From assembly GCF_017876655.1 (NCBI RefSeq), contig NZ_JAGIOK010000001.1, positions 1,736,001-1,800,000 of the forward strand: DNA of 64,000 nt, read 5' to 3'. The translations under genes and the position numbers were made by a program. This DNA comes from Microbacterium imperiale. GTDB taxonomy: Bacteria; Actinomycetota; Actinomycetes; Actinomycetales; Microbacteriaceae. Numbering within the stretch: the stretch's first letter is position 1; the number at the start of each line of letters is the position of its first letter. Shown here piece by piece: positions 8,618 to 32,895 of this stretch. The notes under the pieces are model-generated. The model was not told where the DNA came from and made no database searches. It was given only the letters and a program-made list of their open reading frames with translations.

Positions 8618-8942
8618 GCCCTCGACGCTACGGAGCGCCGCCCGCGCCGTCGTCGCCCGCTCGGATGACCGGCATCCCTCGCGAGAATGACCGTGCCCGC
8701 CTCGCCGTGGCGGACGTCACCGCTCACCTGACACCTCGCACCCCCACCCCCGGCGCGAAGCGACACCAACCGCCAACCCAACCCCGCGCCACCAAACCCC
8801 ACACAACCCAACCCCCGCACCCCAACCCCTCGCCACGCCGCGCCCGCGCCGCACAATGCACGGCGCTCGACCCGGGCGGATCGCCGCGGGATTGGTAGCC
8901 TCGGGCTCGCATACCGCCCGCCCGATCGAAAGCAGGTCGAAC
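8618..8942. other. Non-coding C/A-rich stretch with a G-quadruplex motif on the minus strand
   Basis: This 325-base gap between divergent genes has no plausible gene. From about 8730 to 8845 the plus strand is almost only C and A, with very little G or T. At 8807-8829 the minus strand has four G-runs (4, 4, 5 and 3) separated by loops of 2, 3 and 2 bases, a canonical intramolecular G-quadruplex pattern. Frames that cross it give low-complexity Gly/Arg or Pro/Thr peptides and are not credible proteins. Confidence 0.6.
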
Positions 8943-9878
8943 GTGCGCACCGAACAGCACGCCCTCCGCCTCTCGCTCGCGATGATCCTGCTGCTCGGCA
9001 CGCTCGGGATCACGTTCGGCACGATCACCGGTTCGCAGGCGATCCTGTTCGACGGGATGTTCTCGTTGGCGGATGCCGCGATGTCGCTGCTGGCTATCGG
9101 CGCGGCATCCCTCATCACCCGCTCGACGCGGCAGACGGCGGACTCGCAGCTGAACCAACGGTTCTCGTTCGGCGTGTGGCAGCTCGAGCCGCTCGTCGTC
9201 GCCGCGACGGCCCTCGTGATGGTGACCGTCGCCGTCTACGCGCTCGTGCAGGCCGTGCTGTCGCTGACCTCGGGGGGACGGCCGATCGAGTTCGGCCCCG
9301 CCGTGCTGTACGCCGTGGTGGTCGTGATCCTCACCGCGACGGCGGCGATCGTCGAGTGGCGGGCGAATCGCCGGCTGCGGTCGGCCCTCGTCGCGATCGA
9401 CGTCAAGGGGTGGGTGATGGCGGGCTCGGTGACGCTCGCTCTGCTCGTCGCGTACGTCGTGGGGTGGTTCCTGCAGGGGACGGATGCCGCGTGGCTGACG
9501 CCCTACGTCGACCCCGGCATCCTCGCCGTGGTGGCCTCGGTGCTCGTGTTCGTCCCGCTTCCCGACCTCATCCGCGCCTTCTCGCAGATCGCGCTGCTGA
9601 CGCCCGCGGCGCTCGCCCGCGAGGTCGACACCGCAGCCGCCGTGGTGCAGGAGCGCCACCGGCTCTCGGGCTTCCAGCGCTCCGTCGCCCAGGTCGGACG
9701 ATCGCCGCAGGCCGAGGTCGAGTTCTCGGTGGCGCCGGAGCACGCGACGCGACCGCTCGCGGAGTGGGATGCGATCCGCCGCGACTTCGCCCGCGAGCTG
9801 GGGTGGGATCCGCAGCACAGCTGGGTGACGGTCTTCTTCACCGAGCAGCGGCAGGTACCCGCCGACATCACCGACTAG
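8943..9878 (+). CDS. Cation diffusion facilitator family transporter
   Basis: 311 residues with five to six membrane helices. Metal-site Asp residues of the CDF family are seen in FDGMFSLADA (residues ~40-49) and in IDVKGWVMAG (near 157-165). A cytoplasmic C-terminal domain of about 100 residues follows. CDF proteins export Zn, Mn, Fe or Co using the proton gradient; the metal is not clear here. I chose the GTG at 8943 (following AAAGCAGG) over an upstream frame that would add an unlikely basic leader. Its stop codon overlaps that of the convergent aldehyde dehydrogenase. Confidence 0.85.
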   Translation: MRTEQHALRLSLAMILLLGTLGITFGTITGSQAILFDGMFSLADAAMSLLAIGAASLITRSTRQTADSQLNQRFSFGVWQLEPLVVAATALVMVTVAVYALVQAVLSLTSGGRPIEFGPAVLYAVVVVILTATAAIVEWRANRRLRSALVAIDVKGWVMAGSVTLALLVAYVVGWFLQGTDAAWLTPYVDPGILAVVASVLVFVPLPDLIRAFSQIALLTPAALAREVDTAAAVVQERHRLSGFQRSVAQVGRSPQAEVEFSVAPEHATRPLAEWDAIRRDFARELGWDPQHSWVTVFFTEQRQVPADITD

Positions 9879-11347
9879 ACCGTCAGCACGCCGTCCACAC
9901 GGCGCGGGATGCCGAGGGGGTTCGCGTCGCGCAGGGCCTCGGGCAGCAGCGCATCGGGCACGTTCTGGTAGGCGACGGGTCGCAGGAACCGCGTCATCGC
10001 CGCGGTTCCGACCGAGGTCGTCCCGACGGCGGTGGTCGCGGGGTACGGACCGCCGTGCTGCTGCGCCCACGTGACCGAGACGCCGGTCGGCCACTGATTC
10101 CACAGCACACGGCCGGCCTTCGTCGCGAGCACGGGAAGCAGGTCGCGCGCGACCTCGTCGGAGTCGTCTGCCACGAGGGTCGCGGTCAGCTGTCCGTCGA
10201 GCAGCTCGGCCGCCGTCACCAGCTGCGACTCCTCGTCGTACTCGACGACGAGCGCCGCGGGTCCGAACATCTCCGACACGAGCGTCTCGGGGTCGGCGAT
10301 CACCGCCGCGACGTCGGCGCGCAGCAGCGCCGGCGCGGGAACGGGACCATCGGATGCCGGCGAGGCGGCGAGCACCGCGACGCCCTCGTGGTCGGCGGTG
10401 CGCTCGAACGCCCGGCGGAACCCGGAAGCGATGTCCTCGTTGAGCAGCGGCGCGGGCTCGGGCAGCGCGGCAGCGGCCAGCGCGTCGACGAGGCCCGACC
10501 CGCGCGGGACGAACAGGACGCCCGGCTTCGTGCACAGCTGGCCTGCACTGCCGGTCACCGATGCGACGAACTGCTCCGCGATCTCGGCGCCCCGAGAGGC
10601 GGCGGCGCTGCGGGTGACGAACGCCGGGTTCACGCTGCCGAGCTCGCCGTAGAACGGGATGGGCTCGGGGCGCGACATCGCGATGTCGAACAGGGCCCGT
10701 CCGCCGGCGATCGAGCCGGTGAAGGCGGCCGCCCGGATCTGGGGTGCGCGGAGCGCGTGCACACCGGCATCCGTTCCGTGGATGACCGTGAACAGGCCCG
10801 CGGGCGCGCCGGCCGCCGACAGCGCCGCGATGACGATCTCGCCGGTGAGCGCCGAGAGCTGCGGGTGCCCGGGGTGCGCCTTCAGCACGACGGCGTTGCC
10901 GGCGGCCAGAGCGCTGGCGGTGTCGCCGCCGGCGACCGAGAACGCGAACGGGAAGTTGCTCGCGGCGAAGACGAGCACCGGCCCGATTCCCTCGAGCTGG
11001 CGACGGATGTCGGGGCGCGGCGCCCCCATCGGGTAGTCGGCGTCGGGGTGGTCGATGCGCGCGTCGAGCCACGAGCCCTCGGCGAGGACCTCGGTGAACA
11101 GCCGCAGCTGGAACGTCGTGCGCCGCAGCTCGCCGCGCAGCCGGCCTTCGGCGAGGTGGGTCTCGCGCTGCGCGAGCTCGACCAGGTCGTCGGCTCGCGC
11201 GTCGAGTCCGTCGGCCACGGCGCGCAGCGCCTCACCGCGCTCGACGATGCTCGATGCCCGCCAGGCGACGGATGCCGCCGCAGCGAGCCCGACGAAAGCG
11301 TCGACCTCGGCGATGGGGGTGTCGGCGATGGGCGCGGGAGCGTTCAT
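9875..11347 (-). CDS. Alpha-ketoglutarate semialdehyde dehydrogenase-type aldehyde dehydrogenase
   Basis: 490 residues, ALDH superfamily. The catalytic Cys lies in GSAGQLCTKPG near residue 273 and the general-base Glu in YGELGSVNPAF near 233. Both sequence contexts are those of the NADP-using ketoglutarate semialdehyde dehydrogenases. It would perform the last step of hydroxyproline breakdown, giving 2-oxoglutarate for the TCA cycle. It is the last gene of the long minus-strand operon, and its ATG overlaps the stop of the FAD/NAD subunit gene (ATGA). The substrate is inferred from the complete pathway next door. Confidence 0.88.
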   Translation of the reverse strand: MNAPAPIADTPIAEVDAFVGLAAAASVAWRASSIVERGEALRAVADGLDARADDLVELAQRETHLAEGRLRGELRRTTFQLRLFTEVLAEGSWLDARIDHPDADYPMGAPRPDIRRQLEGIGPVLVFAASNFPFAFSVAGGDTASALAAGNAVVLKAHPGHPQLSALTGEIVIAALSAAGAPAGLFTVIHGTDAGVHALRAPQIRAAAFTGSIAGGRALFDIAMSRPEPIPFYGELGSVNPAFVTRSAAASRGAEIAEQFVASVTGSAGQLCTKPGVLFVPRGSGLVDALAAAALPEPAPLLNEDIASGFRRAFERTADHEGVAVLAASPASDGPVPAPALLRADVAAVIADPETLVSEMFGPAALVVEYDEESQLVTAAELLDGQLTATLVADDSDEVARDLLPVLATKAGRVLWNQWPTGVSVTWAQQHGGPYPATTAVGTTSVGTAAMTRFLRPVAYQNVPDALLPEALRDANPLGIPRRVDGVLTV

Positions 11348-12897
11348 GAGCTTTCCTTTCCGAGTGCTGCGAGGTCGGCGGGGGCGACGCCGGCGGGGGC
11401 GACCGGGTCGTCGGGGTCGGCCGGTGCCACGGGGGCGGCGGCGGGCGCGAGGGCGGCGATGTCGGCGACGCGGATCGGCGTGCCGACCGGGCGGCGCACG
11501 AGGGGTTCGAGGTCGGCCGAGCCCGCCGGTCGACCGGTCTGCTCCGACACCAGGCACGACAGCGCGAATCCGCACACCCGGCCCTGGCACATGCCCATTC
11601 CGGGCCGGGCGGTGACGCGGACGTCGCGCGCGTCGTCGGCCGCGAGGTCGCCGACGGTGCGGCGCACGGCCGACACGGGCACTTCTTCGCACCGGCAGAC
11701 GAGCGTGTCGTCCTCGAGCCACGTCGACCAGGCCGCGGGAATCGGACTCGCCCGGTGCATGCCCACGGCGAAGCGGCGGCCGCGCGCGATGCGGCGACGC
11801 AGGCCGCGGGCGCGAGCCGACGGCACCCCGAACCCGGCGTCGATCGCGGCGGCGAGGGCGGCGAGCTCTCCTTCGGCGCACGACTGCACCGCTCCCCCGA
11901 TCCCGGTCGCCTCGCCGGCGGCGTAGACCCCGGGCACGCTGGTGCGCTGGTCGTCGTCGACGACGGCCACGAGGGATCCGTCGACATCGACCCGCGTGCG
12001 GGCCCCGATGCCCACGACGAGCTCGAGCTGCGGCGTGAACCCCCAGCCGAGCGCGACGAGGTCGGCCTCGACCGTGCGCTCACTGCCGAGGCGCACACGC
12101 CCGGCGGCATCCACGCGCCCGATCGTGACGTGCGAGACCCGACCGTCGCCCGAGATGCGGGTGACGACGGAGCGGGTGCGCAGCGGAATGCGTTCGCGCA
12201 GGAAGGTCGCCGCATAGCCCGCGCCCTCGAGCAGCTTGCCGGGCTCCTGCAGGGCGCGCACCGGCGTCGCCGCCCAGCGCGACAGGGCGTTGGCCTCGCA
12301 CACGGCGACGACCTCGACGCCCGCGCGGGCCAGGCCCGCGGCGACCGAGAGCAGGAACGGCCCCGTACCGGCGACGACGGCGCGACGCCCGGCGCGCACC
12401 TGGTTCGCCTTCAGCATCGCCTGCACCCCGCCCGCCGCCATCACGCCCGGCAGCGTCCAGCCGGGCAGCGGCAACTGCCGGTCGTACGCGCCCGGCGCGA
12501 GCACGACGCGGCGAGCGCGGATCGCGCGCTCGTCCGGGCTCACGGCGTCGCGTCCGGCGACCGCGGTCGTTCGCAGCAGGAAGGCCGCCGCGTCGCCCGG
12601 CCCGTCGGTGCGCCAGACCTGGCGGCCCGCGCGATGGTCCACGCGCCCGGCGGCGACCTGTCGGCGCAGGCGGTCGCGCAGGTCGCGGTAGTGGCCCCAA
12701 TGGTGGTGGCCCGTGTGCTCGGGCTGGGCGAAGGCGTCGAGGTGGTGCTCGTCCGGGTGGCGCCAGTACTGTCCGCCGGTCTGCGTTCCCGCGTCGATCA
12801 GCGCGACGCGCAGGCCGGTCTCGGCGGCGACGACCGCGGCCGAGAGCCCGGCCGGGCCGGCGCCGACGACGGCGAGGTCGAACACGGTCCCGCTCAT
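11344..12897 (-). CDS. D-hydroxyproline dehydrogenase, FAD/NAD(P)-binding subunit
   Basis: 517 residues. Dinucleotide site GAGPAGLSAA near residue 12, second Rossmann motif GTGPFLLSVAAG in the middle, and a C-terminal BFD-like iron-sulfur segment with CRCEEV followed by MGMCQGRVCG (C-x-C and C-x4-C). This is the alpha subunit of hetero-oligomeric opine/proline-type dehydrogenases. With the small [2Fe-2S] protein and the DadA-like subunit upstream it should oxidise cis-4-hydroxy-D-proline to the pyrroline and pass electrons onward. ATG at 12897 overlaps the preceding gene's stop. The Ala/Pro-rich tail is unusual but probably a linker. Confidence 0.85.
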   Translation of the reverse strand: MSGTVFDLAVVGAGPAGLSAAVVAAETGLRVALIDAGTQTGGQYWRHPDEHHLDAFAQPEHTGHHHWGHYRDLRDRLRRQVAAGRVDHRAGRQVWRTDGPGDAAAFLLRTTAVAGRDAVSPDERAIRARRVVLAPGAYDRQLPLPGWTLPGVMAAGGVQAMLKANQVRAGRRAVVAGTGPFLLSVAAGLARAGVEVVAVCEANALSRWAATPVRALQEPGKLLEGAGYAATFLRERIPLRTRSVVTRISGDGRVSHVTIGRVDAAGRVRLGSERTVEADLVALGWGFTPQLELVVGIGARTRVDVDGSLVAVVDDDQRTSVPGVYAAGEATGIGGAVQSCAEGELAALAAAIDAGFGVPSARARGLRRRIARGRRFAVGMHRASPIPAAWSTWLEDDTLVCRCEEVPVSAVRRTVGDLAADDARDVRVTARPGMGMCQGRVCGFALSCLVSEQTGRPAGSADLEPLVRRPVGTPIRVADIAALAPAAAPVAPADPDDPVAPAGVAPADLAALGKESS

Positions 12898-13205
12898 CGT
12901 CGCTCGCCCCCGTCGGTCGTGGTCGGCGACGCGAGCGGCGCGCCCGGATCGTCGCTGCGGACGTCCTGGCCCGCGCCCGCCGGTGTCACGCACGCGCGCT
13001 GCGACCGCAGCCCGTCGACCGTCAGCAGGCAGTCGTAGCAGACGCCGATGCCGCAGAACAGGCCGCGCGGTTCGCCCGCCCCCCTGGTCGTGCGCCAGGC
13101 CGTGACGCCGGATGCCGCGAGCGCGGCGCCCACGCTCTGCCCCGGCTGGAACGGCACCGGCGTACCGTCGAACGCGAACATTCCGCCCGCGGCATCCCCG
13201 CTCAT
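12894..13205 (-). CDS. D-hydroxyproline dehydrogenase, small [2Fe-2S] subunit
   Basis: 103 residues, ferredoxin-like. The cluster ligands are in CGIGVCYDC (C-x4-C-x2-C) with a fourth Cys about 12 residues later in SQRAC. The N-terminal half (VPFQPGQSVGAALAASG) matches the beta-grasp fold of the gamma subunits of three-component amine/proline dehydrogenases. It relays electrons between the two flavoproteins. Both ends overlap neighbouring genes by four bases, which supports a stable 1:1:1 complex. Confidence 0.87.
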   Translation of the reverse strand: MSGDAAGGMFAFDGTPVPFQPGQSVGAALAASGVTAWRTTRGAGEPRGLFCGIGVCYDCLLTVDGLRSQRACVTPAGAGQDVRSDDPGAPLASPTTTDGGERR

Positions 13206-14368
13206 GCGGCCACCGCGTCGGCGAAGCGCTCGGGCCGGAAGGCGTCGAGCGGCAGGTCGGTCGGCTCGCCGCGGAGCGCCTGCACGATGAGCTGCGCCGT
13301 GCCGACCGACAGCCCGATGCCGGCGCCCTCGTGTCCGGCGGCGTGCCACATCCCGGGCAGGCGCGCGTCGGGACCGATGACGGGGAGGTGATCGGGGCAG
13401 TAGGGGCGGAAGCCGGAGTAGGTCCGCAGAATCTGGACGTCGGCGAGCACGGGGAACAGCTCGGCGCCGGCGCGCGCCACCCGACCGACCGCCTCGGCGG
13501 AGAAGGTCGCGTCGAAGCCCACGCGTTCGCGGCTGGCGCCCATGAGGATCGTGCCGCTCGGGGTGCCCTCGACGACCGATGACACCTGCAGACCCGCATC
13601 CGACGAGGCGACATTCTGGACGTACTCGGCCGCGTAGACCTTGTGGTGCACGGTGATGGGCACGGGCTCGGTGACGAGCACGAAGCCGCGGCGGGGCAGC
13701 ACCGGCAGCTCGAGCCCCGCGAGCGCGGCGATCTCGCCCGCCCACGGCCCCGCGCAGTTGATGACGGCGCCGGCGTCGAGCGCGCCCGCGCTCGAGTCGA
13801 CGCCGATCACGCGGCCGGCGCGCGTGCGGATGCCGGTCACCGTGACGCCCGTGAGCAGGCGCGCTCCCCGGTCGCGGGCGAGCCGGAGCAGGTGGTGGGC
13901 GGCGAGCACGGGCTGCACCTGCGCGTCGTCGGGGTAGAACACGCCGCCGGCCATCGCCGGGTTCAGGTGCGGCTCGATGTCGTGCAGCGCGGCGACATCG
14001 GGCACGTCCTCGGCCCGGATCCCGAGCCCGCGCTGGTGCTCGGCCAGCGCGTCGAGCGCGCTCTTGCCCGCGGTGCTCGCCGCCACGACGAGCCCGCCCT
14101 TGGACTCGAACTCCCAGCGGGCGGCGTGCTCGGCGAGCTCGCCGCGCCAGATGCGCTGCGAGTGCAGCGCCAGCTCGAGCTCGGGTCCGACCTCCTTGTC
14201 GCTGACGAGGAGGTTGCCCTCGCAGCGGCTCGTCGTGCCCGCGGCGATCGATCCGCGTTCGACCACCGTGACCGAGAAGCCCGCGGCCGAGGCGAAGTGC
14301 GCGACGGCGGCGCCGACGATGCCCGCGCCGATGGCGAGGATGTCGGGGCGTGCGGTGCCCCCGCTCAC
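13202..14368 (-). CDS. D-hydroxyproline dehydrogenase, DadA-like FAD oxidoreductase subunit
   Basis: 388 residues, DAO/DadA superfamily. The FAD motif GAGIVGAAVAHF lies near residue 14, and the late motif TYSGFRPYCPDHLPVIGPD plus HAAGHEGAGIGLS near 350 is the flavin-capping region of glycine/D-amino acid oxidases. It is the substrate-oxidising beta subunit of the three-part dehydrogenase, expected to act on cis-4-hydroxy-D-proline made by the epimerase of this operon. GTG start at 14368 overlaps the GntR gene stop. Confidence 0.87.
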   Translation of the reverse strand: MSGGTARPDILAIGAGIVGAAVAHFASAAGFSVTVVERGSIAAGTTSRCEGNLLVSDKEVGPELELALHSQRIWRGELAEHAARWEFESKGGLVVAASTAGKSALDALAEHQRGLGIRAEDVPDVAALHDIEPHLNPAMAGGVFYPDDAQVQPVLAAHHLLRLARDRGARLLTGVTVTGIRTRAGRVIGVDSSAGALDAGAVINCAGPWAGEIAALAGLELPVLPRRGFVLVTEPVPITVHHKVYAAEYVQNVASSDAGLQVSSVVEGTPSGTILMGASRERVGFDATFSAEAVGRVARAGAELFPVLADVQILRTYSGFRPYCPDHLPVIGPDARLPGMWHAAGHEGAGIGLSVGTAQLIVQALRGEPTDLPLDAFRPERFADAVAA

Positions 14369-15072
14369 GTGCCGACGCTCTCGTCGGCGGCATCCGGCGC
14401 GGGCGCCTCGCCCGACCAGTCGGTGAGCACGTGCTCGATGTGGCGGTGCACGAGGTCGCGGGCACCGGCGGCGTCGCCGGCCTCGATCGCGTCGAGCATC
14501 AGGTCGTGCTCGTGCGCCGAAGCGACCAGACGCCCCTGCTCGTGCAGGCCCGCGAGGCCGAACAGCCGCGTCTGCGACCGCAGCCCCGCGACGAGCTCGA
14601 CGAGTCGGGCGTTGCCGGCGTACTGCAGCAGCGCGAGGTGGAAGTCGCTGTCGGCGGCGAGGTACTCGACGAGGTCGCCCGACTGCGCGCCGGCGACGAT
14701 GTCGGCGGCCTTGCGCCGCAGCTCAGGCAGCGCCGACGGCGGGATGAGGGGCGTCGCCCGCTCGACGGCGGGCGGCTCGAGCATCAGCCGCAGCTCGGTG
14801 ACCTCGCGCAGGTCGCGCTCGGACACCTCGGTGATCTGGAAGCCGCGGTTGGGGATCGTCACGACCAGGCCCTCGCGCGCGAGGTCGAGCATCGCCTCGC
14901 GGATGGGCGTGGCCGAGACGCCGAACTGCTCGCCCAGGCTCGGCGCGGAGTACACCCGGCCCGGCTGCAGCTCGCCGCTGATGACCGCGGCGCGCAGCGC
15001 CCGTGTGACGGTCGATCGGATGCTCGGCTGCTTGTTCAGTCGCACCACGTTGCGGAACTCGGGCGTGCTCAT
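14365..15072 (-). CDS. GntR-family (FCD domain) transcriptional regulator
   Basis: 235 residues. The N-terminal winged helix-turn-helix (residues ~18-80) has the GntR signature SAPSLGEQFGVSATPIREAM. The C-terminal helical FCD ligand-binding domain carries metal-coordinating residues D-x-x-FH (SDFHLAL) and later His residues in HEHDLMLDAI and HRHIEHVL. It sits inside the hydroxyproline operon, so hydroxyproline or a pathway acid is the likely effector. The TGCAATTGCA palindromes at 18025-18034 and 28947-28956 are the best candidate operators. ATGA-type overlap with both neighbours. Confidence 0.92.
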   Translation of the reverse strand: MSTPEFRNVVRLNKQPSIRSTVTRALRAAVISGELQPGRVYSAPSLGEQFGVSATPIREAMLDLAREGLVVTIPNRGFQITEVSERDLREVTELRLMLEPPAVERATPLIPPSALPELRRKAADIVAGAQSGDLVEYLAADSDFHLALLQYAGNARLVELVAGLRSQTRLFGLAGLHEQGRLVASAHEHDLMLDAIEAGDAAGARDLVHRHIEHVLTDWSGEAPAPDAADESVGT

Positions 15073-16037
15073 GTCGTCTCCTCCGGCGCGGCCCCCCGCC
15101 GCATGACTCCCATGATCCCCTGCACGACCGCGAGGTCCTCCCAGGCCATGCCGACGCCGCTGTACACCGCTGGCACGCCCGGGCGGCGCACGACCGCGCC
15201 CCGCACGAGCTCGACCAGGTTGGCCGGGGCGGCGAGCTCGGCACCGTCGGATGCCGCGGCGGCGAGGTTGCCGCTCTCGCGGGCGGCCGACGCGCGGGCC
15301 TCGACGACGACGTCCGCGGCGCGGACCAGGTCGGCTGCCAGTTCGCGGTGGGCGATGCCGTGGGCGCCGATCGCCGCGACGACGGCGTCGGAGCGGACGT
15401 CGCCGAGCCCCAGCACGGGAGTGCTCGACGAGGTCGCGGTCACGACGACGTCGGCACGGCGGAGGTCGTCGGGCGTACCGGAGCGCGCATCGAGGCCGCG
15501 CTCGCGCAGCGCCGCGACCGCCGTCGCGACCCGGTCGGGCGTGCGGCCGATGAGCGCGACGCGACCGACCGGCAGGACCGCCGCGAGGGTCGTCGCGTGC
15601 TCGATCGCCTGCGGTCCCGAACCGAGCACGACGAGCTCCGCGATCTCGGTGCGCGCACCGCCGGGGTCGGCTGCCAGCAGGCCGCGGACGGCGACGGCGG
15701 TGACCGCGGGCGTTCGCAGTGTCGTCAGCCGGGTCCCGTCGACAATCGCCGCCGGCTGCAGCGTGGCGGCGTCGAAGATGAGGTACCAGGCGCTGATCTT
15801 CGGCAGCCCGAGCCGCGTGTTGCCCGGGGCGATCGTGGCAACCTTGATGCCCACGGCATCCGGCGTCTCGGTCGGCATCAGCAGGAACTCGCCCGCGGCC
15901 AGGGGCGCGAAGATGCGCTCGTGGTCCGTTTCGACGTCGAGACCCGACTGCAGCGCGGCGGTCACGGCCTCGACGGCGTCGGCGGGGCTGAAGACCCGCT
16001 CGATGTCGGCGGCCGAGACGACGGGGATGCCGGTCAC
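15069..16037 (-). CDS. Ornithine cyclodeaminase / mu-crystallin family protein (possible pyrroline-carboxylate reductase)
   Basis: 322 residues of the OCD/mu-crystallin family. Rossmann motif VVLGSGPQAIEHA is near residue 136, substrate-side Lys is in GIKVATIAPGN near residue 68, and ATSSSTPVLG lies near 205. Family members in hydroxyproline clusters include Delta1-pyrroline-2-carboxylate reductases that salvage cyclic imines to L-proline. No trans-3-hydroxyproline dehydratase is visible here, so its exact substrate is open. GTG start at 16037 overlaps the epimerase stop. Confidence 0.8.
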   Translation of the reverse strand: MTGIPVVSAADIERVFSPADAVEAVTAALQSGLDVETDHERIFAPLAAGEFLLMPTETPDAVGIKVATIAPGNTRLGLPKISAWYLIFDAATLQPAAIVDGTRLTTLRTPAVTAVAVRGLLAADPGGARTEIAELVVLGSGPQAIEHATTLAAVLPVGRVALIGRTPDRVATAVAALRERGLDARSGTPDDLRRADVVVTATSSSTPVLGLGDVRSDAVVAAIGAHGIAHRELAADLVRAADVVVEARASAARESGNLAAAASDGAELAAPANLVELVRGAVVRRPGVPAVYSGVGMAWEDLAVVQGIMGVMRRGAAPEETT

Positions 16038-17035: not shown

Positions 17036-17080
17036 GCGGGGCCTTTCGGTCGTCGGCGGCGGGTCAGGTCGGCGGTCGGC

Positions 17081-20722: not shown

Positions 20723-22161
20723 CCGCGCTGCCCCAGCTGAGCCTGCGTCCACGCCTCGACCTCGCCCGCCGCGATCGGCAGCGCCGCGGACAGCACCTCC
20801 GAACCGGCGTCGGTCACGAGGACGTCGTCCTCGAGGCGCACGCCGATGCCGCGGAGCTCCGGCGGCAGCGTGAGGTCGTGGGCGTGGAAGTAGAGCCCCG
20901 GCTCGACCGTCATGACGACCCCGGGCTCGAGTGCGGCGCCCATGTAGTCCTCGTAGTGGGCCTGGCTGCAGTCATGCACGTCGAGCCCGAGGTGATGGCC
21001 GATGCCGCAGGCGAGGTACCGGCGATGCTGCTGCCCCGCGGGCGAGAGCGCCTCGTCGACCGACACCGGCAGCAGCCCCCAGTCGTGCAGGCCCTGCGCG
21101 ACGACCTCCATCGCCGCGAAATGGAAGTCGAGGTACTCCACGCCGGGACGGATGCGGTCGAGCCCCGCGCGATGCGCCTTCTCGACCAGGTCGTGCACCT
21201 CGCGCTGCGCCGCCGAGAAGCGTCCGCTCGCCGGTACGGTGCGGGTGACGTCGGCGGTGTAGAGCGACCGGGCCTCGACCCCCATGTCGAGCAGCAGGGC
21301 GGCGTCGGGATCGATGTCGCCGTCGCAGCGCACCCAGTGCAGGATCGGGGCGTGGGCACCCGAGCCGACGATCGTGGAGTAGCCGGGGCCGTTGCCGAAG
21401 GTGCGGGCGTGCCGGTCGAAGGTGCCCTGCAGCCAGCGCTCTCCGAGCCCCTCGGCGACGGCCCGCGGCACCTCGGCGACGACCGCCGCGAAGCCGGCGA
21501 CGGTCGCGTCGACCGCCTCGCGCAGCTGTGTGATCTCCCACGCGTCCTTGACCATCCGCAGCCGCGACAGCGTGCTCTCGAGCTCGGCCGACACCTCCGC
21601 GCCGGCGGTCGCGGCGAGGGTCGACGCCGATCGCGCCGCCCACGCTCCCCGCAGGTCGCCGTGCCGGGCGGCGAGGGCGTCGAGCGGTTCCACGACGACG
21701 CCGAGAGCCTCGCCCCACTCGGGCAGCCCGGCAGACGGGCCGACCCACAGCTCGCCGTGGTTGGCGTCGGCGAAGAAACCCGTATCGCCGGGACGGAAGG
21801 GCGGCGGCAGGTAGAGCACCGGGTCGTGCCCGCCCGGCACGGCCCACATCACCAGCACGGCGCCCTCGACCTGGCACCCGGTGAGCCAGACGAAGCTGCT
21901 GTCGGCCCGGAACCCGTAGTGGGCGTCGTCGTTGCGGACGGGCGCGTGCCCCGCGGCGGCGACGAGCGTGCGCCCGGGCAGGGCCGCGCTCAGCCGCTCG
22001 CGGTGGACGGATGCCGCCGCCGCGGCGCCCGGCGGCAGATCAGGGGCCGTTCGCACGTCGGCCCAATCGCGGGCGATGAAGGCGGTGAAGGCGGGCACCT
22101 GCCCGAGGCGCGGGTACCGCGTCCCCGCGTAGGGCGGGCGCAGGGCGTCGGTGCCGGTCAT
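20719..22161 (-). CDS. M24-family Xaa-Pro aminopeptidase-like metallopeptidase
   Basis: 480 residues. N-terminal aminopeptidase P-like domain (residues ~1-210) followed by the pita-bread catalytic domain. The five metal ligands are visible in order: LLLDMGVE, YTADVTRT, GIGHHLGLDVHD, TVEPGLY and VRLEDDV. Such enzymes remove an N-terminal residue preceding proline or hydroxyproline. No signal peptide, so it works on imported peptides. It overlaps both the S33 peptidase gene and GH127 by four bases. In this operon it would free residues N-terminal to Pro/Hyp. Confidence 0.9.
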   Translation of the reverse strand: MTGTDALRPPYAGTRYPRLGQVPAFTAFIARDWADVRTAPDLPPGAAAAASVHRERLSAALPGRTLVAAAGHAPVRNDDAHYGFRADSSFVWLTGCQVEGAVLVMWAVPGGHDPVLYLPPPFRPGDTGFFADANHGELWVGPSAGLPEWGEALGVVVEPLDALAARHGDLRGAWAARSASTLAATAGAEVSAELESTLSRLRMVKDAWEITQLREAVDATVAGFAAVVAEVPRAVAEGLGERWLQGTFDRHARTFGNGPGYSTIVGSGAHAPILHWVRCDGDIDPDAALLLDMGVEARSLYTADVTRTVPASGRFSAAQREVHDLVEKAHRAGLDRIRPGVEYLDFHFAAMEVVAQGLHDWGLLPVSVDEALSPAGQQHRRYLACGIGHHLGLDVHDCSQAHYEDYMGAALEPGVVMTVEPGLYFHAHDLTLPPELRGIGVRLEDDVLVTDAGSEVLSAALPIAAGEVEAWTQAQLGQRG

Positions 22162-23447
22162 CGCTTCTCTCCTCCGCGGTCGCGCACGAGCTCTCGCAGC
22201 CGGGTGAACGTCCGGCCCGAACCGATCCCGTCGTGCTCGAACTCATTGGTCACCCACGACTGCGCGTTGCCGATGCGGGACAGCGTGTCGAGCTGCAGGC
22301 CCGCGTCGACGTACATGTCGTCGAAGTACACGGCGGCGGCGAGCGGCACGTCGTTCGCCGCGAGGCGCTCGGCGTCGTACAGCGGCGTCCAGTCGGTGCG
22401 CTCGGCGAGCGCGTGCACGGCGCCGCGGAAGCCGCGGAGCAGCCGCACCTCGTCGAACATCCATGGGAACGCCATCTCGCCGGTGAACAGCAGGGGCCGC
22501 CGGTCCTCGTCGAACTCCGGGCGCCGATCGCGCTCGTGCTGCGCCGCCCAGGCGGTCGCGCCGCTGCCCGGGTCGCCGTAGATCGACTCCTGCAAGGTCC
22601 AGAACAGCGGGTTGCCCGCGCTGGAGCTCAGGGCCTGCACGTCGGCGAGGAAGGCCTCCGAGAATCGGCCGGGACGCGCGAACGCTCGCTCGACGAGCCA
22701 GTGCAGCCGCTCGTGCCCGGGCTTCATCCCCAGGTCGATGCCGAGCGACTGGAAGCGGTGGACGGTGAGGACGTCGCCGTCCGGCAGGACCACGTCGCCC
22801 TCCGCGATGCGGTCGGCGATGCGCGTGATCGCCTCGGCGTCTCCGGGGAAGCGCCGGTACAGCTCGGCGGTCTTCGCCGCGACGCGGTCGAAGGTGCGGG
22901 CGTAGACCTCGGCGGCGCGGGGCGGGGTACCCGGGATGCCGCCGCAGACGTAGCAGGCGGTGAGGGCCCGCGGGGCCTGCGACAGGTAGGTCAGCGTGAG
23001 GAAGCCGCCGTAGCTCTGCCCGAGCGTCGCCCAGCGGCGGCCGCCGTACAGCGTCTCGCGGACGTGCTCGAGGTCGCGCACGATCGAATCGGCGCGGTGC
23101 AGCGCGAGCAGGTCGGCTCCGGCGGCGGCGTCGAGTCCCGCGACGTCGACGGCCTCGAGCGGCGTGCTGCCGCCGGTGCCGCGCTGATCGACGAGCACCA
23201 CGCGGTAATCCCGCAGCGCCTCGTCGACCCAGCCGTCGCGGCGCAGGGGCCGCGGGTTCGCGCCTCCCGGTCCGCCCTGGAGGTACACCAGCAGCGGCAG
23301 GTCGTCGCGGGCGCGATCGGGGTCGACGAGCTCGCGCACCAGCAGCTCGATCGTGCCCGCGGCATCCGTGTCGGCACGCCAGTCGAGGGGGACGTCGATG
23401 CGTCGCTCGGCGACGCGGATGCCGGGCAGGTGGTACTCGACGGTCAT
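22158..23447 (-). CDS. S33-family alpha/beta-hydrolase, prolyl aminopeptidase-like
   Basis: 429 residues. Oxyanion-hole motif QGGPGG near residue 60, DQRGTGGS near 90, nucleophile elbow GQSYGGF near 143, and a C-terminal segment with DDMYVD and EFEHDG supplying the likely acid and His. This is the layout of proline iminopeptidases, which release N-terminal Pro (some also Hyp). Cytoplasmic. Translationally coupled to the ABC ATPase upstream and to the M24 peptidase downstream. The ATG at 23447 is used because it gives the ATGA overlap seen throughout this operon. Confidence 0.88.
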   Translation of the reverse strand: MTVEYHLPGIRVAERRIDVPLDWRADTDAAGTIELLVRELVDPDRARDDLPLLVYLQGGPGGANPRPLRRDGWVDEALRDYRVVLVDQRGTGGSTPLEAVDVAGLDAAAGADLLALHRADSIVRDLEHVRETLYGGRRWATLGQSYGGFLTLTYLSQAPRALTACYVCGGIPGTPPRAAEVYARTFDRVAAKTAELYRRFPGDAEAITRIADRIAEGDVVLPDGDVLTVHRFQSLGIDLGMKPGHERLHWLVERAFARPGRFSEAFLADVQALSSSAGNPLFWTLQESIYGDPGSGATAWAAQHERDRRPEFDEDRRPLLFTGEMAFPWMFDEVRLLRGFRGAVHALAERTDWTPLYDAERLAANDVPLAAAVYFDDMYVDAGLQLDTLSRIGNAQSWVTNEFEHDGIGSGRTFTRLRELVRDRGGEKR

Positions 23448-24328
23448 GATGCCTCCGGGCGGGTCTCGGGGGCGCGCGCCGCGCGACGCCGGGCGTTCTC
23501 GGCGGCGCGGCGACGGCGGTCCCATTCGGGGTTGATGCGCGGCACGGCCGCGAGCAGGGTGCGGGTGTACTCGTGCTGCGGGTTCTCGAAGATGCGGTCG
23601 CGTTCGCCCGTCTCGACGATCGAGCCACGGCTCATCACCGCGATGCGGGTGGCGATCTGCCGGACGACCGCCAGATCGTGCGCGATGAACAGGTAAGCGA
23701 ATCCCTCGTCGCGCTGCAGCGACGTGAGGAGGTTCACCACCTGCGCCTGCACCGACACGTCGAGGGCCGACACGGCCTCGTCGCAGATGACGAGCTTCGG
23801 GCCGACGGCGAGGGCTCGGGCGATCCCGATGCGCTGCGCCTGCCCGCCGGAGAACTGCGCCGGGTAGCGGTCGGAGTGGTCGGGGTTGAGACCGACGCGC
23901 TCCATGAGCGAGCGGGTGAAGGCGCGCGCGCCGCCGGGGACCTTTCGGTTCTGGTAGCGCAGCGGCGCGGTCACGAGACGCTCGACCGTGTGCTTGGGGT
24001 TGAGCGACGAGTACGGGTCCTGGAAGATCACCTGCACGTCGCTGCGGAAGGCGAGCAGGTCGCGTCCCTGCAGCCGGGTGACGTCGCGGCCCTCGAACTC
24101 GATCGTGCCGGCGGTCGTCTCCATGAGGCGGGCCACGAGCCGCGCGACGGTCGACTTGCCCGAGCCGGACTCGCCGACGAGGGCGAGGGTCTCACCGCGG
24201 CGGATGTCGAGGTCGACCTCGTCGACCGCGCGGAACCGGCTGCTGCGCGAGAAGAGCGCGCCGCCCGAGCTCGTGAACTCCTTGACGAGTCCGGTGGCCC
24301 GGCACAGCGGGGCGGTGTGCTCGGTCAT
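23444..24328 (-). CDS. Peptide ABC transporter ATP-binding protein (DppF/OppF-like)
   Basis: 294 residues. Walker A GESGSGKST near residue 53, Q-loop in FQDPYSSLNPKHTV, signature FSGGQAQRIGIARAL, Walker B LVICDEAVSALDVS. The C-terminal segment with HEYTRTLLAAVPRINPE is the oligopeptide/dipeptide importer-specific extension. Pairs with the next ATPase to energise the DppB/DppC pore. The extreme Ala/Arg-rich tail is poorly conserved. Overlaps both neighbours. Confidence 0.92.
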   Translation of the reverse strand: MTEHTAPLCRATGLVKEFTSSGGALFSRSSRFRAVDEVDLDIRRGETLALVGESGSGKSTVARLVARLMETTAGTIEFEGRDVTRLQGRDLLAFRSDVQVIFQDPYSSLNPKHTVERLVTAPLRYQNRKVPGGARAFTRSLMERVGLNPDHSDRYPAQFSGGQAQRIGIARALAVGPKLVICDEAVSALDVSVQAQVVNLLTSLQRDEGFAYLFIAHDLAVVRQIATRIAVMSRGSIVETGERDRIFENPQHEYTRTLLAAVPRINPEWDRRRRAAENARRRAARAPETRPEAS

Positions 24329-25215
24329 GCGATCTCCTCCTCGGCGAGGACCGGGATGTCGGTCGTGCGCAGCTGCCCGATCGCGTCGTCGATGCGCGGC
24401 ACGGCGTCGAGCAGGCGCCGCGTGTACTCCTCCTGCGGATCGCTGAAGACGTCTTCGACCGAGCCGCTCTCGATCATGCGGCCCGCGCGCATGACCACGA
24501 TGTGCTCGGTGACCTCGCTCACGACGGCCAGGTCGTGGGTGATGAGGATGAGCCCGGCGCCGGTGTCGCGACGGATCTCGGCGAGCAGATCGAGGATCTG
24601 CGCCTGCACCGTCACGTCGAGGGCCGTCGTCGGCTCATCCGCGATGATCAGCTCGGGCTCCATGCTCAACGCCATCGCGATCATGATGCGCTGCCGCATG
24701 CCGCCCGAGAACTGATGCGGGTAGTGGTCGACGCGCTTCGCGGCATCCCGGATGTGCACGCGTTCCATCGCCTCGATCGCCACCCGCCGCGCCTCGCGGC
24801 GCGAGACGCCCGAGCGGTGCGACCGATAGGCCTCCGCGATCTGCGTGCCCACCGTGTAGTACGGGTTCAGCGACGACAGCGGGTCCTGGAAGATCATCGC
24901 GATCCGGTCGCCGCGCACGTGCCGCATCTCGCGGGAGGGCAGCGTCAGCAGGTCTCGACCGTCGAAGCCGACCCTCCCCGAGGCGGTGCCGCCCTTCGGC
25001 AGCAGACCCATGACGGCGAGGCTGGTCATCGACTTGCCCGATCCCGACTCGCCGACGATGCCCAGCGCACCGCCGCGGGGCACCGCGAAGCTCAGGCCGT
25101 CGACGACGCTGACCGCGCCGCCGGCCGTGCGGAACTGCACCGTGAGGTCGTCGACCCGCAGCAGGTCGTCGGACGAAGCGGGCGTGGTCGTCATCGGCAT
25201 CCCTCCGCCGGTCAT
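24325..25215 (-). CDS. Peptide ABC transporter ATP-binding protein (DppD/OppD-like)
   Basis: 296 residues. Walker A GESGSGKSM near residue 50, QDPLSSLNPYYTVG, signature FSGGMRQRIMIAMAL and Walker B LIIADEPTTALDV. The end QEEYTRRLLDAVPRID is the peptide-importer extension. The start at 25215 (MTGGGMPMTTTP) is chosen because it overlaps the DppB stop by four bases; an internal Met six codons later is possible. Confidence 0.92.
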   Translation of the reverse strand: MTGGGMPMTTTPASSDDLLRVDDLTVQFRTAGGAVSVVDGLSFAVPRGGALGIVGESGSGKSMTSLAVMGLLPKGGTASGRVGFDGRDLLTLPSREMRHVRGDRIAMIFQDPLSSLNPYYTVGTQIAEAYRSHRSGVSRREARRVAIEAMERVHIRDAAKRVDHYPHQFSGGMRQRIMIAMALSMEPELIIADEPTTALDVTVQAQILDLLAEIRRDTGAGLILITHDLAVVSEVTEHIVVMRAGRMIESGSVEDVFSDPQEEYTRRLLDAVPRIDDAIGQLRTTDIPVLAEEEIA

Positions 25216-26210
25216 GCGCGCGCCGCCGTCCGGACGCGCGGGTCGATCGCGGCGTAGAGCAGGTCGACGACGAGGTTGCCGACGATCACGAAGAACGCCG
25301 ACAGCAGCGTCACCGCCATGATGACCGGCTGGTCGTTCGACGAGATCGAGTCGGCGGTCAGCTTGCCCACGCCGTTGAGTCCGAACACGGTCTCGGTGAT
25401 GACGGCACCGCCGAGCAGACCCGCGACGTCCATGCCGAAGATGGTCACGATGGGCGTGAGCGCGGGCCGCAGCGCGTGGCGGCGCCAGACGAGGCTCGGA
25501 CGCAGGCCCTTCGCGTGCGCGCTGCGGACGAAGTTCTCCTGCAGCGTGTCGATGACGTTGGCGCGCGTGAGCCGCGTGTACACCGCCGCGTAGCCGACGG
25601 CCAGCACGATCCACGGCATGAGGAAGTTCAGGAACCAGCGCGCCGGGTCGTCGCCGAAGGGCACCGCCTGAGGGAAGGGCAGCCAGCCCAGCGAGACCAC
25701 GAGGACGAACTGCAGCGCGAGGGCGAGCACGTAGTTGGGGATCGACATCGAGCCGAGCGTGAGGCCCGCGACGAACCGGTCGGCGAAGCGACCCTCGCGC
25801 ACGGCGCTGAGCACGCCGCCGACGACACCGCCGACGAGCCAGAGCACCGCGGCGCCGATCGCGATCGTCGCCGAGATCGGCAGCCGCTGCACGATCATGT
25901 CGCCGACGAGCTGGCCCGTCTGGAACGAGTAGCCCAGGCACGGGGCCCCGCACACGACGGTGGCGCCGGCGACCTCGTACTCGCGGCCGACGAACAGGCC
26001 CGACAGGTACGTGAAGAACTGCGTGAGGAAGGGCTGGTCGAGGCCGAGGTTCGCGCGGATCTGGTCGATGCGCTCGGGCGTGCAGTTCTTGCCGCAGATC
26101 TGCACCGCGGGGTCGGGCGAGAGCACGAAGAAGATCACGAAGGTGAACAGGGTCACCAGGAACAGCACGACCGCCATGCCGGCGACGCGCGAGAGGACGA
26201 AGCGGGTCAC
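25212..26210 (-). CDS. Peptide ABC transporter permease (DppB-like)
   Basis: 332 residues with six membrane helices. The N-terminal helix is followed by a long outer loop with CGKNCTPERIDQIRANLGLDQP, a DppB hallmark, here with two Cys plus a further Cys pair (VVCGAPCLG) that may form external disulfides. The EAA loop reads FVRSAHAKGLRPSLVWRRHA. GTG start at 26210 overlaps the DppC stop. Confidence 0.92.
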   Translation of the reverse strand: MTRFVLSRVAGMAVVLFLVTLFTFVIFFVLSPDPAVQICGKNCTPERIDQIRANLGLDQPFLTQFFTYLSGLFVGREYEVAGATVVCGAPCLGYSFQTGQLVGDMIVQRLPISATIAIGAAVLWLVGGVVGGVLSAVREGRFADRFVAGLTLGSMSIPNYVLALALQFVLVVSLGWLPFPQAVPFGDDPARWFLNFLMPWIVLAVGYAAVYTRLTRANVIDTLQENFVRSAHAKGLRPSLVWRRHALRPALTPIVTIFGMDVAGLLGGAVITETVFGLNGVGKLTADSISSNDQPVIMAVTLLSAFFVIVGNLVVDLLYAAIDPRVRTAARA

Positions 26211-27181
26211 GCGCGCACCTCCGTGCTGCCCACGAGCGCGCGGATGCGGTCGCCGAGGGTCGTGAAGGAGAGCACGAGCAGGAACAGGAACGCGCCCGGG
26301 ATGAGGAAGTACATCGGGTCGACGGCGTACCAGGGCGCCGCCGACGCGATCATCTGGCCCCAGCTGGGGGTCGGCGGCACGACCCCCACGCCGAGGAACG
26401 ACAGCCCCGCCTCGGTGCCGACGTACCCCGGAACGGCGAGCGTGGCCATCACGATGATCGTCGACGAGAGGTTCGGCAGGATCTCGCGGAAGATGATCTG
26501 CACGCTCGAGGCTCCCGACGCCCGGGCCGATTCGACGAACTCGCGCTCCTTGAGCGAGAGCGTCTGCGAGCGCACGATGCGGGCGAGGTAGGGCCAGCCG
26601 AACAGCGAGATGACGACGACGAGCAGCAGCACGCGGTTGTCGGCGGGGAGCGCCGAGAGGATCGCGATCATGAAGATGAGCGCGGGGAAGGCCATGAGGA
26701 ACTCCATGACCCGCGAGATGACCGTGTCGACCCAGCCGCCGAGGTAGCCCGCCAGCATCCCGAACACGACGCCCAGGACGGTCGTCAGCAGAGTGGCCGA
26801 CAGCGCCACCGTCATCGACACCTGCGCGCCGTAGACGATGCGCGCGAAGATGTCGCGGCCGTTGCCCGGCTCGACGCCGAACCAGTGCTCGGCGCTGATG
26901 CCGCCGAGCGGGCCGATCGGGATCGCGCCCATGTTCGGGTCGATCGCGCTCTGGTCGAACTCGTACGGTGACCAGCCACTCAGGCGCACGATCAGGGGGG
27001 CGAAGACGGCCATGAGCAGGACGAGCACGATGTACCCGAGCGAAAGCATCGCGGGGACGTCGGTGAGGAAGCCTCTGAGGAGTTTCCGGCCGGACGCCGG
27101 GTGGGATTCCACGGACTCGTCGAGTGTGGAATCACCGCCCGGAGTGGCCTCGACCTCGAGGGGGGCCGAGCTGAAGGTCAT
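26207..27181 (-). CDS. Peptide ABC transporter permease (DppC-like)
   Basis: 324 residues. A cytoplasmic N-terminal tail of about 35 residues, first helix at MLSLGYIVLVLLMAVFAPLI, then the DppC-specific extracellular segment with EHWFGVEPGNGRDIFAR. The EAA loop is FVESARASGASSVQIIFREI. Six helices in total. Starts one base after the substrate-binding protein's stop, so the two are cotranscribed and probably coupled. Confidence 0.92.
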   Translation of the reverse strand: MTFSSAPLEVEATPGGDSTLDESVESHPASGRKLLRGFLTDVPAMLSLGYIVLVLLMAVFAPLIVRLSGWSPYEFDQSAIDPNMGAIPIGPLGGISAEHWFGVEPGNGRDIFARIVYGAQVSMTVALSATLLTTVLGVVFGMLAGYLGGWVDTVISRVMEFLMAFPALIFMIAILSALPADNRVLLLVVVISLFGWPYLARIVRSQTLSLKEREFVESARASGASSVQIIFREILPNLSSTIIVMATLAVPGYVGTEAGLSFLGVGVVPPTPSWGQMIASAAPWYAVDPMYFLIPGAFLFLLVLSFTTLGDRIRALVGSTEVRA

Positions 27182-27182
27182 G

Positions 27183-28877
27183 TCAGCCCTTCGACGGGTC
27201 CTTCAGACCGACGATGGTGAGGTCGGTCATGTTGGTGTTCGGGATGTAGCCGGCGATGTTCTCACCCGGCAGGAAGATGCCGTTCTCGAACACCATCGGG
27301 GCGATGGGCGCGAGCTCCATGATCTGCTGGTCGAGCTCGCCCCAGGCCTCGTTGGCGGCGTCGACGTCGGTCATCGCCCGGATCTCGGCGATGCGCTCGT
27401 TGACGGCCGGGTCGTCGAGCTGGGCGAGGTTCTGGTTGCCCTTCTCGGCGATCGCTGCACCGTCGAACAGCGGCGGGATGAACGTGCTCGCGCTCGAGGC
27501 CCAGTCGGGGCACCATCCGGTGATCGCGGCGTTGTTCTGCTGCGAGGGGGTGGCGATCGTCTCGTAGTAAATCGACGTGTCGATGACGTTGAGCTTCACG
27601 GTCGCCCCGATCCGTTCGAGGCCCTGCTGCACGGCCTCCGCCTGCGCCTGCGCGACGGGGTTCGTGCGGATGTCGAGGGTGAACTCGAACCCGTCACCCA
27701 ACCCGGCCTCCTCGAGCAGCGCCATGGCCTCGTCGACGTCGCCGGTGCTGCCGTCGGAGGGGTAGAGGTCGTAGTCGAGGTGGCCGCTGACGGCCGGCGG
27801 GATGATCGTCGTCGCGACATCCGCCAGCTGATTGCCGCCCGAGGCGTTCTGGATGCTGGCACGGTCGAGCGCCCAGTTGACCGCCTGGCGCACGCGGACG
27901 TCATCGAAGGGCGGCTTGGTCGTGTTCAGCGACATGTAGGTCGTGCAGTACGCCGGGGCGGTGATCGCGCGCTCCTGCAGCTGCGGCGTCTGGATGCGGG
28001 GCAGCGTGGCGCCCGCGATCTTGCCCGCGATCGCGTTCTGATCGGCGCCCTGTCCGGCGATCATGCGCTCGTCGATCGTCGCGCCGTCGATGCCGATGTC
28101 GAACTGCCACTGGTCGGGGTAGGCCTTGCGGACCTCATCGGTCTCGGGCTCCCAGTGCTCGTTGCGCACGAGCGTGATGGTGCTGCCGGGGGTATAGGCG
28201 TCGAGCGTGTACGGGCCCGAGGCGATGACGTCGTTGATGAACTCGTCGCCCCCGCCGGACCCGACCGGGAAGGGCACCGCGTTGGGCTGGGCGAGGACGT
28301 TGTCGAACTCGGGGAAGGGAGCCTTGAGGTGGAAGACGATCGTCTTCTCGTCGGGGGTCTCGATGGTCGGCAGGTCGCCCGAGACGTAGGGGCCCTGATA
28401 GTCCTCGGGGGCGTCGATGACGCTCTTGAGGTACGGCGAGCCGATGCCGATCTGCGGGTCCCACGCCCGCGAGATGCCGAACTCCATCTCGGCCGAGGTG
28501 ATGGGCGCACCGTCGTCGAAGAAGATGTCGTCCTTGAGGGTGTAGGTCCAGGTGAGCCCGTCGTCGGACACCTCGCCGAGACCCGTCGCGAGGTCGGGCA
28601 CGATCGCGTTCGGGTCGTTGGAGTCGCCCGCGGCCTGCATCGTGAGTCCGCGGTAGAGCAGCCGGTAGAACGCGTTCACGCCGCCGTCCCACCCGCGGGC
28701 GGGATCGAGGTACGAGAAGTCGGCGTTCTGGAGCATGTGGACGGTTCCGCCGGTCTGCGGCTCACCGGCGGTGCCGCTCTGCTGCGGCGAGCCGCCGCCC
28801 GCGCCGCACGCCGTGAGGGCCAGTGACACGGCTGCGCCCGCGGCGAGGATGCCGGCGAGTCTCCTAGTGGTGGTCAT
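27183..28877 (-). CDS. Peptide ABC transporter substrate-binding lipoprotein (family 5)
   Basis: 564 residues. Lipoprotein signal with lipobox LALTACG (Cys ~ residue 24), then a family 5 binding protein: the SYLDPARGWDGGVNAFYRLLYRGL region near residue 60 and GLTWTYTLKDDIFFDDG, the conserved signature near 120, are typical of DppA/OppA-type proteins. It is the first gene of the operon and probably selects short, possibly arabinosylated, hydroxyproline peptides; specificity is inferred from context. GGGAAGG precedes ATG 28877, and a rare palindrome lies about 70 bases upstream. Confidence 0.92.
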   Translation of the reverse strand: MTTTRRLAGILAAGAAVSLALTACGAGGGSPQQSGTAGEPQTGGTVHMLQNADFSYLDPARGWDGGVNAFYRLLYRGLTMQAAGDSNDPNAIVPDLATGLGEVSDDGLTWTYTLKDDIFFDDGAPITSAEMEFGISRAWDPQIGIGSPYLKSVIDAPEDYQGPYVSGDLPTIETPDEKTIVFHLKAPFPEFDNVLAQPNAVPFPVGSGGGDEFINDVIASGPYTLDAYTPGSTITLVRNEHWEPETDEVRKAYPDQWQFDIGIDGATIDERMIAGQGADQNAIAGKIAGATLPRIQTPQLQERAITAPAYCTTYMSLNTTKPPFDDVRVRQAVNWALDRASIQNASGGNQLADVATTIIPPAVSGHLDYDLYPSDGSTGDVDEAMALLEEAGLGDGFEFTLDIRTNPVAQAQAEAVQQGLERIGATVKLNVIDTSIYYETIATPSQQNNAAITGWCPDWASSASTFIPPLFDGAAIAEKGNQNLAQLDDPAVNERIAEIRAMTDVDAANEAWGELDQQIMELAPIAPMVFENGIFLPGENIAGYIPNTNMTDLTIVGLKDPSKG

Positions 28878-28939: not shown

Positions 28940-28957
28940 TGCAATGTGCAATTGCAC
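28940..28957. promoter_or_regulatory. Palindrome GTGCAATTGCAC with adjacent half-site before the importer operon
   Basis: A perfect 12-bp palindrome (28946-28957) is directly preceded by another TGCAAT half-site. It lies 69-80 bases upstream of the binding-protein start, in the 210-base gap that must hold the operon promoter. The core TGCAATTGCA is identical to the one before the dapA-like gene. In such GC-rich DNA this word is expected very rarely. Confidence 0.6.
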
Positions 28958-32853: not shown

Positions 32854-32895
32854 CGATTCATGGTAGCCACAGGCATGCCTTCCTAGACTTGACCC

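Follow-up and report, generated by a model that had tools for sequence, protein, structure and literature searches.

The 64,000-nucleotide stretch of the Microbacterium imperiale genome analysed here (contig NZ_JAGIOK010000001.1, positions 1,736,001 to 1,800,000; the window) contains 16 contiguous genes on the minus strand, from 28877 to 9875, which probably form an operon for glycopeptide catabolism, covering the import of arabinosylated hydroxyproline (Hyp) peptides, their intracellular deglycosylation and peptidolysis, and the conversion of Hyp to 2-oxoglutarate. The source genome comprises 3.17 Mb in 2 contigs. Genes overlap by 4 bases at 13 of the 15 junctions, the remaining two being spaced by +1 and +45. 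An initial annotation, made from the sequence of the window, had listed 16 co-directional genes in the order found here, all of which lie on the minus strand, and Pfam agrees with its gene families. Its proposal that import, deglycosylation, cleavage and Hyp oxidation belong to one system is well supported by comparative genomics, while the assignment of the glycosidase to glycoside hydrolase (GH) family 127 did not hold up, a frameshift in the glycosidase gene had been missed, and the substrate is still a prediction.

From the gene content we infer the following substrate, flux and regulation. A complete Opp/Dpp family-5 ATP-binding cassette (ABC) importer, recognised by Pfam, would take up short Hyp peptides still bearing beta-linked L-arabinofuranose. 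It consists of a substrate-binding lipoprotein (27183..28877; SBP_bac_5, PF00496, 1e-71) with a lipobox-like LTAC at the N-terminus, an OppC-type permease (26207..27181; PF00528 (BPD_transp_1) and PF12911), an OppB-type permease (25212..26210; PF19300 and PF00528), and two ABC ATPases (24325..25215 and 23444..24328), both with PF00005 (ABC_tran) and an oligo_HPY tail, PF08352 in the second. The sugar would be removed in the cytoplasm by a GH146-type beta-L-arabinofuranosidase, whose gene (17980..20722; PF07944) lacks a signal peptide and is frameshifted near 20380, and the peptide would be cleaved in the same compartment by a prolyl-aminopeptidase-like S33-type enzyme (22158..23447; PF00561, Abhydrolase_1) and an aminopeptidase-P-like M24 enzyme (20719..22161; PF00557 (Peptidase_M24) and PF05195 (AMP_N)). 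Free trans-4-hydroxy-L-proline would be converted to the D form by an enzyme of the 4-hydroxyproline epimerase/proline racemase family (16034..17035; Pro_racemase, PF05544, 7.8e-128). D-Hyp would then be oxidised by a three-subunit D-Hyp dehydrogenase, comprising a DAO-type subunit (13202..14368; PF01266), a 2Fe-2S (Fer2_4) subunit (12894..13205; PF13510) and a pyridine-nucleotide flavoprotein-type subunit (11344..12897; Pyr_redox_2, PF07992), and deaminated by a DapA-like protein (17081..17983; DHDPS, PF00701), predicted to be a pyrroline-4-hydroxy-2-carboxylate deaminase from its position and the parallel with Streptomyces coelicolor. An aldehyde dehydrogenase (9875..11347; Aldedh, PF00171), predicted to act on 2-oxoglutarate semialdehyde (KGSA), would oxidise the deaminase product to 2-oxoglutarate, the L-arabinose would enter the ordinary ara pathway, and a HypR-like GntR-FCD protein (14365..15072; PF00392 and PF07729) would regulate the operon. 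The remaining gene encodes an OCD-like protein, possibly a pyrroline-2-carboxylate reductase (15069..16037; OCD_Mu_crystall, PF02423).

By profile and by structure model, the glycosidase is nearer to GH146 than to the GH127 enzyme HypBA1. A profile built from 24 of its relatives matched solved GH146 chains with E-values from 2e-81 to 8e-66 (2e-81 for 5opj and 1.9e-66 for 8k7y), as against 7.6e-21 and worse for GH127 chains, and about 2e-11 for HypBA1. In a fold search with a model of P0001, an intact 913-residue relative, GH146 structures occupied ranks 1-6 by E-value, ahead of any GH127, with TM-scores near 0.5; the mean pLDDT of this model is 77, falling below 50 in stretches around the active site. 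HypBA1-type GH127 membership was ruled out by both the sequence profile and the fold ranking. The Cys3-Glu zinc site and Cys nucleophile of clan GH-P are present (E346, C348, C416 and C417 of P0001), and these residues are invariant across the 24 rows and aligned with those of GH146. The C-terminal domain PF20737 is not among the Pfam matches of the window glycosidase; it is present in classical GH127-type genes of three related loci (L046, L064 and L072). The proximity to GH146 strengthens the arabinosyl-Hyp proposal, because two GH146 enzymes act on arabinosyl-Hyp (Ara-Hyp): according to the available portions of these papers, Bll4HypBA1 is active on Araf-beta-Hyp (PMC10850190), and XeHypBA1, assigned to GH146 by the same authors, prefers Ara-Hyp (PMC6085000). 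Those close relatives of the glycosidase that bear a name come mostly from Microbacterium. The C-terminal end of the glycosidase (window 17980-20385) also matches an OmpL47-type domain, unusual for a predicted cytoplasmic enzyme.

The gene set is not confined to M. imperiale. A scan of a collection of genome contigs with the glycosidase alignment, which detects those relatives carrying two short peptide patterns, confirmed 159 relatives, and the best 80 loci were kept and scored by tblastn with the window genes. A locus was counted as a cassette if the glycosidase was accompanied by S33 and/or M24 peptidase at 60% identity or more. There were 55 cassettes among the 80 loci, and 47 loci had the full set of substrate-binding protein, OppC, OppB, S33, M24 and glycosidase. 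The cassettes belong mainly to Microbacterium (17), Glycomyces (13), Promicromonospora (8), Streptomyces (3), Kineosporia (3) and Brachybacterium (2), with single ones in Pseudoclavibacter, Leucobacter, Actinoplanes, Catenuloplanes, Symbioplanes, Actinosynnema, Kineococcus, a Ruaniaceae bacterium and Nesterenkonia, the last consisting of S33 and glycosidase only. For 43 of the 55, Hyp catabolism is represented inside the retrieved DNA or no more than 5.2 kb from it: 33 carry one or more Hyp-core genes within the retrieved DNA (24 of them at least three), and in 10 further loci the epimerase is located 0.5-5.2 kb past it, as confirmed on the contig for 6 and by coordinate only for 4. Regions of Streptomyces, Actinosynnema, Catenuloplanes, Kineosporia, Kineococcus and Symbioplanes have the cassette directly joined to the Hyp core and the regulator, in rearranged order, so that, judged from these sequences, gene content is conserved while gene order varies between genera. 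Since the set recurs in other genera, its linkage exceeds chance. The initial annotation had asked whether co-occurrence of the glycosidase with Hyp genes might be limited to this genome; it was found in many genera.

The epimerase follows the cassette at the level of whole genomes as well. It was found at 70% identity or more for 54 of the 55 cassettes. In 25 of them it lies within the retrieved DNA (at least 72% identity), and a genome-wide search of 29 of the remaining 30 (L065 excepted) was positive at 70% or above in every case, once with a partial match. The same search covered 13 of the 25 non-cassette loci and detected the epimerase in one genome, or in 2 of 14 if L057 is counted, a non-cassette Nesterenkonia locus where the Hyp core is near the glycosidase and the importer and peptidases are absent. 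Of the 12 not covered, three (L086, L088 and L106) belong to genomes in which a cassette is also present (L067, L059 and L043). The trait has a patchy distribution in the genus: among 59 genomes, the own one and 58 relatives, the close enzyme (at least 57% identity) is present in six, own included. It is adjoined by M24 in the five other genomes, and in four of these by DapA and the epimerase also.

Localisation of the glycosidase separates the cassettes from the other loci. Cassette glycosidases lack a twin-arginine translocation (Tat) signal, which was found in 23 of the 25 non-cassette relatives; the Tat pattern matched one cassette row (L039), apparently in read-through upstream of the gene. 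When the cassette label was mapped on a quick tree with 85 rows, it required 2 changes, compared with a mean of 21.6 for shuffled labels. In three loci of family f38 (L123, L124 and L125), a Tat-bearing PF07944 relative of about 1005-1017 aa, with 36-37% identity, stands beside a full Hyp operon that includes GntR and ABC ATPase genes. This arrangement would represent a second design, with the sugar removed outside the cell. A cassette glycosidase and a Tat-secreted relative coexist in three genomes (L067/L086, L059/L088 and L043/L106).

Some cassettes are joined by further carbohydrate-related genes. A GH36 alpha-galactosidase gene adjoins six of the 55, being placed between M24 and the glycosidase in Pseudoclavibacter (L046) and Leucobacter (L048), and appearing as a homolog at the locus edge in four Glycomyces loci (L045, L077, L078 and L079). 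Eight cassette loci contain a second gene of the classical GH127 type, as Pfam confirmed for L046, L064 and L072, and in L037 and L048 the cassette is followed by genes of the araD, araB and araA types. Since the two classical glycans of extensin are alpha-galactosyl serine and beta-arabinosyl Hyp, these partner genes indicate extensin-like substrates. In the genome of the window araB and araA are adjacent to each other elsewhere, and araD was not matched in the 15 kb around them.

The nearest solved chains of the S33 enzyme, for which the S33 Pfam match is weaker than Abhydrolase_1 and just below the cut-off, are the Arabidopsis protein AT3g61540 (8jgn), which we take to be a prolyl aminopeptidase, and its DM3Hh0 form (8jgm), with an E-value of 7e-93. 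Bacterial proline iminopeptidases trail far behind, at 2e-7 and worse. For the M24 enzyme the nearest solved chain is aminopeptidase P (1.1e-48).

By family, all four steps of L-Hyp catabolism appear to be encoded, namely the epimerase, D-Hyp dehydrogenase, deaminase and KGSA dehydrogenase. The best NCBIfam model for the epimerase is 4-hydroxyproline epimerase, with 354.7 bits, below the cut-off of 376. Trans-3-Hyp dehydratases differ from epimerases at the two catalytic Cys sites, and this identity was ruled out, as both positions are Cys in the protein (PMCGHG and SPCGTG in the alignments). In the DapA-like protein the presumed motif of the Schiff-base lysine is retained. The aldehyde dehydrogenase, whose nearest solved chains are 1eyy and 3v4c, retains the presumed Cys and Glu motifs. 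The best NCBIfam models for the OCD protein are pyrroline-2-carboxylate reductases, all below cut-off. This protein, which may salvage proline, is missing from certain cassettes whose Hyp core is complete in all other respects, for example L041 and L053.

A putative operator of the GntR regulator, TGCAATGT, is located at 28940..28947, which places it 63-70 bases before the start of the first gene, and occurs once in the window, both strands counted. The HypR site of S. coelicolor, TGCAATGTCAC, has this sequence as its core (PMC6608401). The complement of TGCAATGT, ACATTGCA, precedes the first gene in 16 of 17 Microbacterium regions, and in 15 of these it is placed between -66 and -76. In other genera the HypR site is partly present or missing. 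GTGACAT is present in 6 of 10 regions of the Streptomyces/Kineosporia/Actinoplanes group and ATGTCAC in 4 of 13 from Glycomyces; in the seven Promicromonospora regions neither of these nor the TGCAATGT core was found. A palindromic operator common to all genera was also sought, and none with 5 or 6 bases per arm occurred in at least eight regions. These data are no more than suggestive of HypR-type regulation through the TGCAATGT site.

Each part of the predicted system has a known counterpart. The HypAA-HypBA2-HypBA1 locus of Bifidobacterium longum (GH43, GH121 and GH127 with a sugar ABC importer) likewise recovers arabinose from Hyp-rich glycoproteins (HRGPs) by means of an ABC importer and a beta-L-arabinofuranosidase inside the cell; as described in the available text, it differs in importing the free disaccharide beta-Ara2 rather than a peptide, in having neither Hyp catabolism nor peptidases, and in using a GH127 enzyme where the operon has one nearer to GH146 (PMC7263609). 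No GH121 arabinobiosidase or sugar importer is found among the 16 operon genes (the rest of the genome was not searched for GH121). The HypR regulon of S. coelicolor, SCO6289-6294, is induced by L-Hyp, and deletion of its epimerase abolished growth on L-Hyp; it shares with the operon the three-subunit D-Hyp dehydrogenase, DapA-like deaminase, epimerase and GntR-FCD regulator, but the portion of its gene table available lists no such importer, peptidase pair or glycosidase, and the authors tied it to collagen, with glycosylation and arabinose unmentioned in the main text (PMC6608401). Among the enzymes reported in the accessible part of a study of Xanthomonas euvesicatoria (XeHypBA1, XeHypBA2 and XeHypAA), XeHypBA1 resembles the operon glycosidase in its GH146 affinity (PMC6085000, PMC10850190), but it carries a 43-residue signal peptide, and no transporter is mentioned in the main text (PMC6085000). 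The nearest solved sequences and folds are the GH146 enzymes BT0349, Bll3HypBA1 and Bll4HypBA1, which have the Cys3-Glu zinc site in common with the operon enzyme, as far as the available text describes (PMC10850190); identity to Bll3HypBA1 is about 24%, and the C-terminal region, with its OmpL47-type domain, differs. A genome reconstruction of Latescibacteria predicts arabinose release from extensins by GH127, with oligopeptide transporters in the same genomes, but in the sections available these are separate functions on genome fragments, and neither an operon uniting them nor a pathway for Hyp catabolism is described (PMC4454575). Searches that mostly did not extend to subscription papers found no literature pairing a hydroxyproline epimerase with an arabinofuranosidase and none linking arabinosylated hydroxyproline to Actinobacteria. 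As far as these searches show, the combination has apparently not been described as one unit, in agreement with the initial annotation, which knew of no such description.

Several observations weigh against a system that uses both sugar and peptide. The glycosidase gene of the window is itself frameshifted near 20380: PF07944 profile positions 72-373 match 19441-20379, and positions 1-71 match 20381-20662 in a different frame, the latter weakly (E-value 2e-4, under the cut-off). This second frame, starting at ATG 20722, is nearly identical to the N-terminus of P0001. When the window was compared with 1900 proteins from related loci, of which 893 matched, frameshift signals were confined to 20310-20400. 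The frameshift may reflect a pseudogene or an assembly error, and the sugar-removing step may be broken in this strain; the use of both substrate parts claimed in the initial annotation, supported by comparative genomics for the system, may thus not hold here. Recent decay, leaving the operon to serve bare Hyp peptides, would be compatible with an ancestral glycopeptide function and is a serious possibility, if somewhat short of an even chance, given that this single frameshift is the sole one in the 24.6 kb where homologs of at least 50% identity cover the window. An isolated assembly error would appear identical, however, and the remaining gene is otherwise undamaged, its in-frame piece being 98% identical to P0001; M. 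thalli has an intact relative at 88%. Further points of the same kind come from the comparison of genomes. Twelve of the 55 cassettes have no Hyp gene nearby in the DNA examined; it lies 181 kb (L037) or 105 kb (L077) away on the same contig, or on a different contig (L042, L046 and L048), while other cases are cut by contig ends or were not resolved. In an even sample of the class (394 genomes, 2 candidates scored per genome), the close enzyme was found solely in the window's own genome, so that the case for conservation rests on the targeted scan and the relatives sample. A glycosidase match (E-value up to 1e-20) and an epimerase of at least 60% identity occurred together in 30 of these genomes, with the two genes less than 3 kb apart in 10, nine of which are from one genus (f38, g73). 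In addition, the PF07944 family spans other activities, and both second GH127-type genes (L104, L105 and L108) and ara genes (L096 and L106) are found near non-cassette loci.

Most epimerase genomes of the class sample lack a close glycosidase, as would be expected if the operon served unglycosylated Hyp or Pro peptides, such as those of collagen, and the glycosidase acted on an unrelated imported arabinoside, merely sharing the transcript. The importer and both peptidases would suit plain Pro/Hyp peptides, and the available text on the S. coelicolor Hyp regulon links it to a collagenase (PMC6608401). This explanation is nevertheless unlikely in view of the position of the glycosidase, inserted between M24 and DapA with 4-base overlaps and found beside M24 or S33 in 55 of 80 loci, and of the GH36, second GH127-type and ara genes that join some cassettes. 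If the peptides are indeed arabinosylated, they could derive not from extensin but from plant peptide hormones or from other small Hyp peptides that carry arabinose. A peptide importer would accept small peptides, and beta-arabinosylated peptide hormones are named alongside HRGPs in the accessible part of one source (PMC7263609). This origin is nevertheless improbable: hormones are a scarce source of carbon, and the GH36 genes beside six of the 55 cassettes better suit the alpha-galactosyl serine of extensin.

The reading of the operon as a glycopeptide-catabolism system can be extended, with the balance of evidence somewhat in favour, to a system widespread in actinobacteria that imports arabinosyl-Hyp peptides intact, whether structural or hormonal, and uses both halves inside the cell. 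The cytoplasmic GH146-like branch would then be separate from its Tat-secreted relatives, and in a second design, seen in another actinobacterial family, the same Hyp operon would be paired with a PF07944 enzyme secreted by Tat. In plant walls, Hyp-rich glycoproteins hold nitrogen and carbon in a form that resists proteases, and their recovery by bacteria as glycopeptides is little described. If correct, this proposal would provide a genetic marker for the trait across many actinobacteria and a substrate prediction for the cytoplasmic GH146-like branch, and would connect, in a testable way, the turnover of plant cell-wall protein, or arabinosylated peptide signals, with microbial metabolism.

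The genes flanking the operon have no evident tie to it. They encode a cation efflux protein (8856-9878) on one side and, on the other, a beta-lactamase-family protein (29088-30335), a heme oxygenase (30789-31445) and a PIF1-like helicase (31471-33891).

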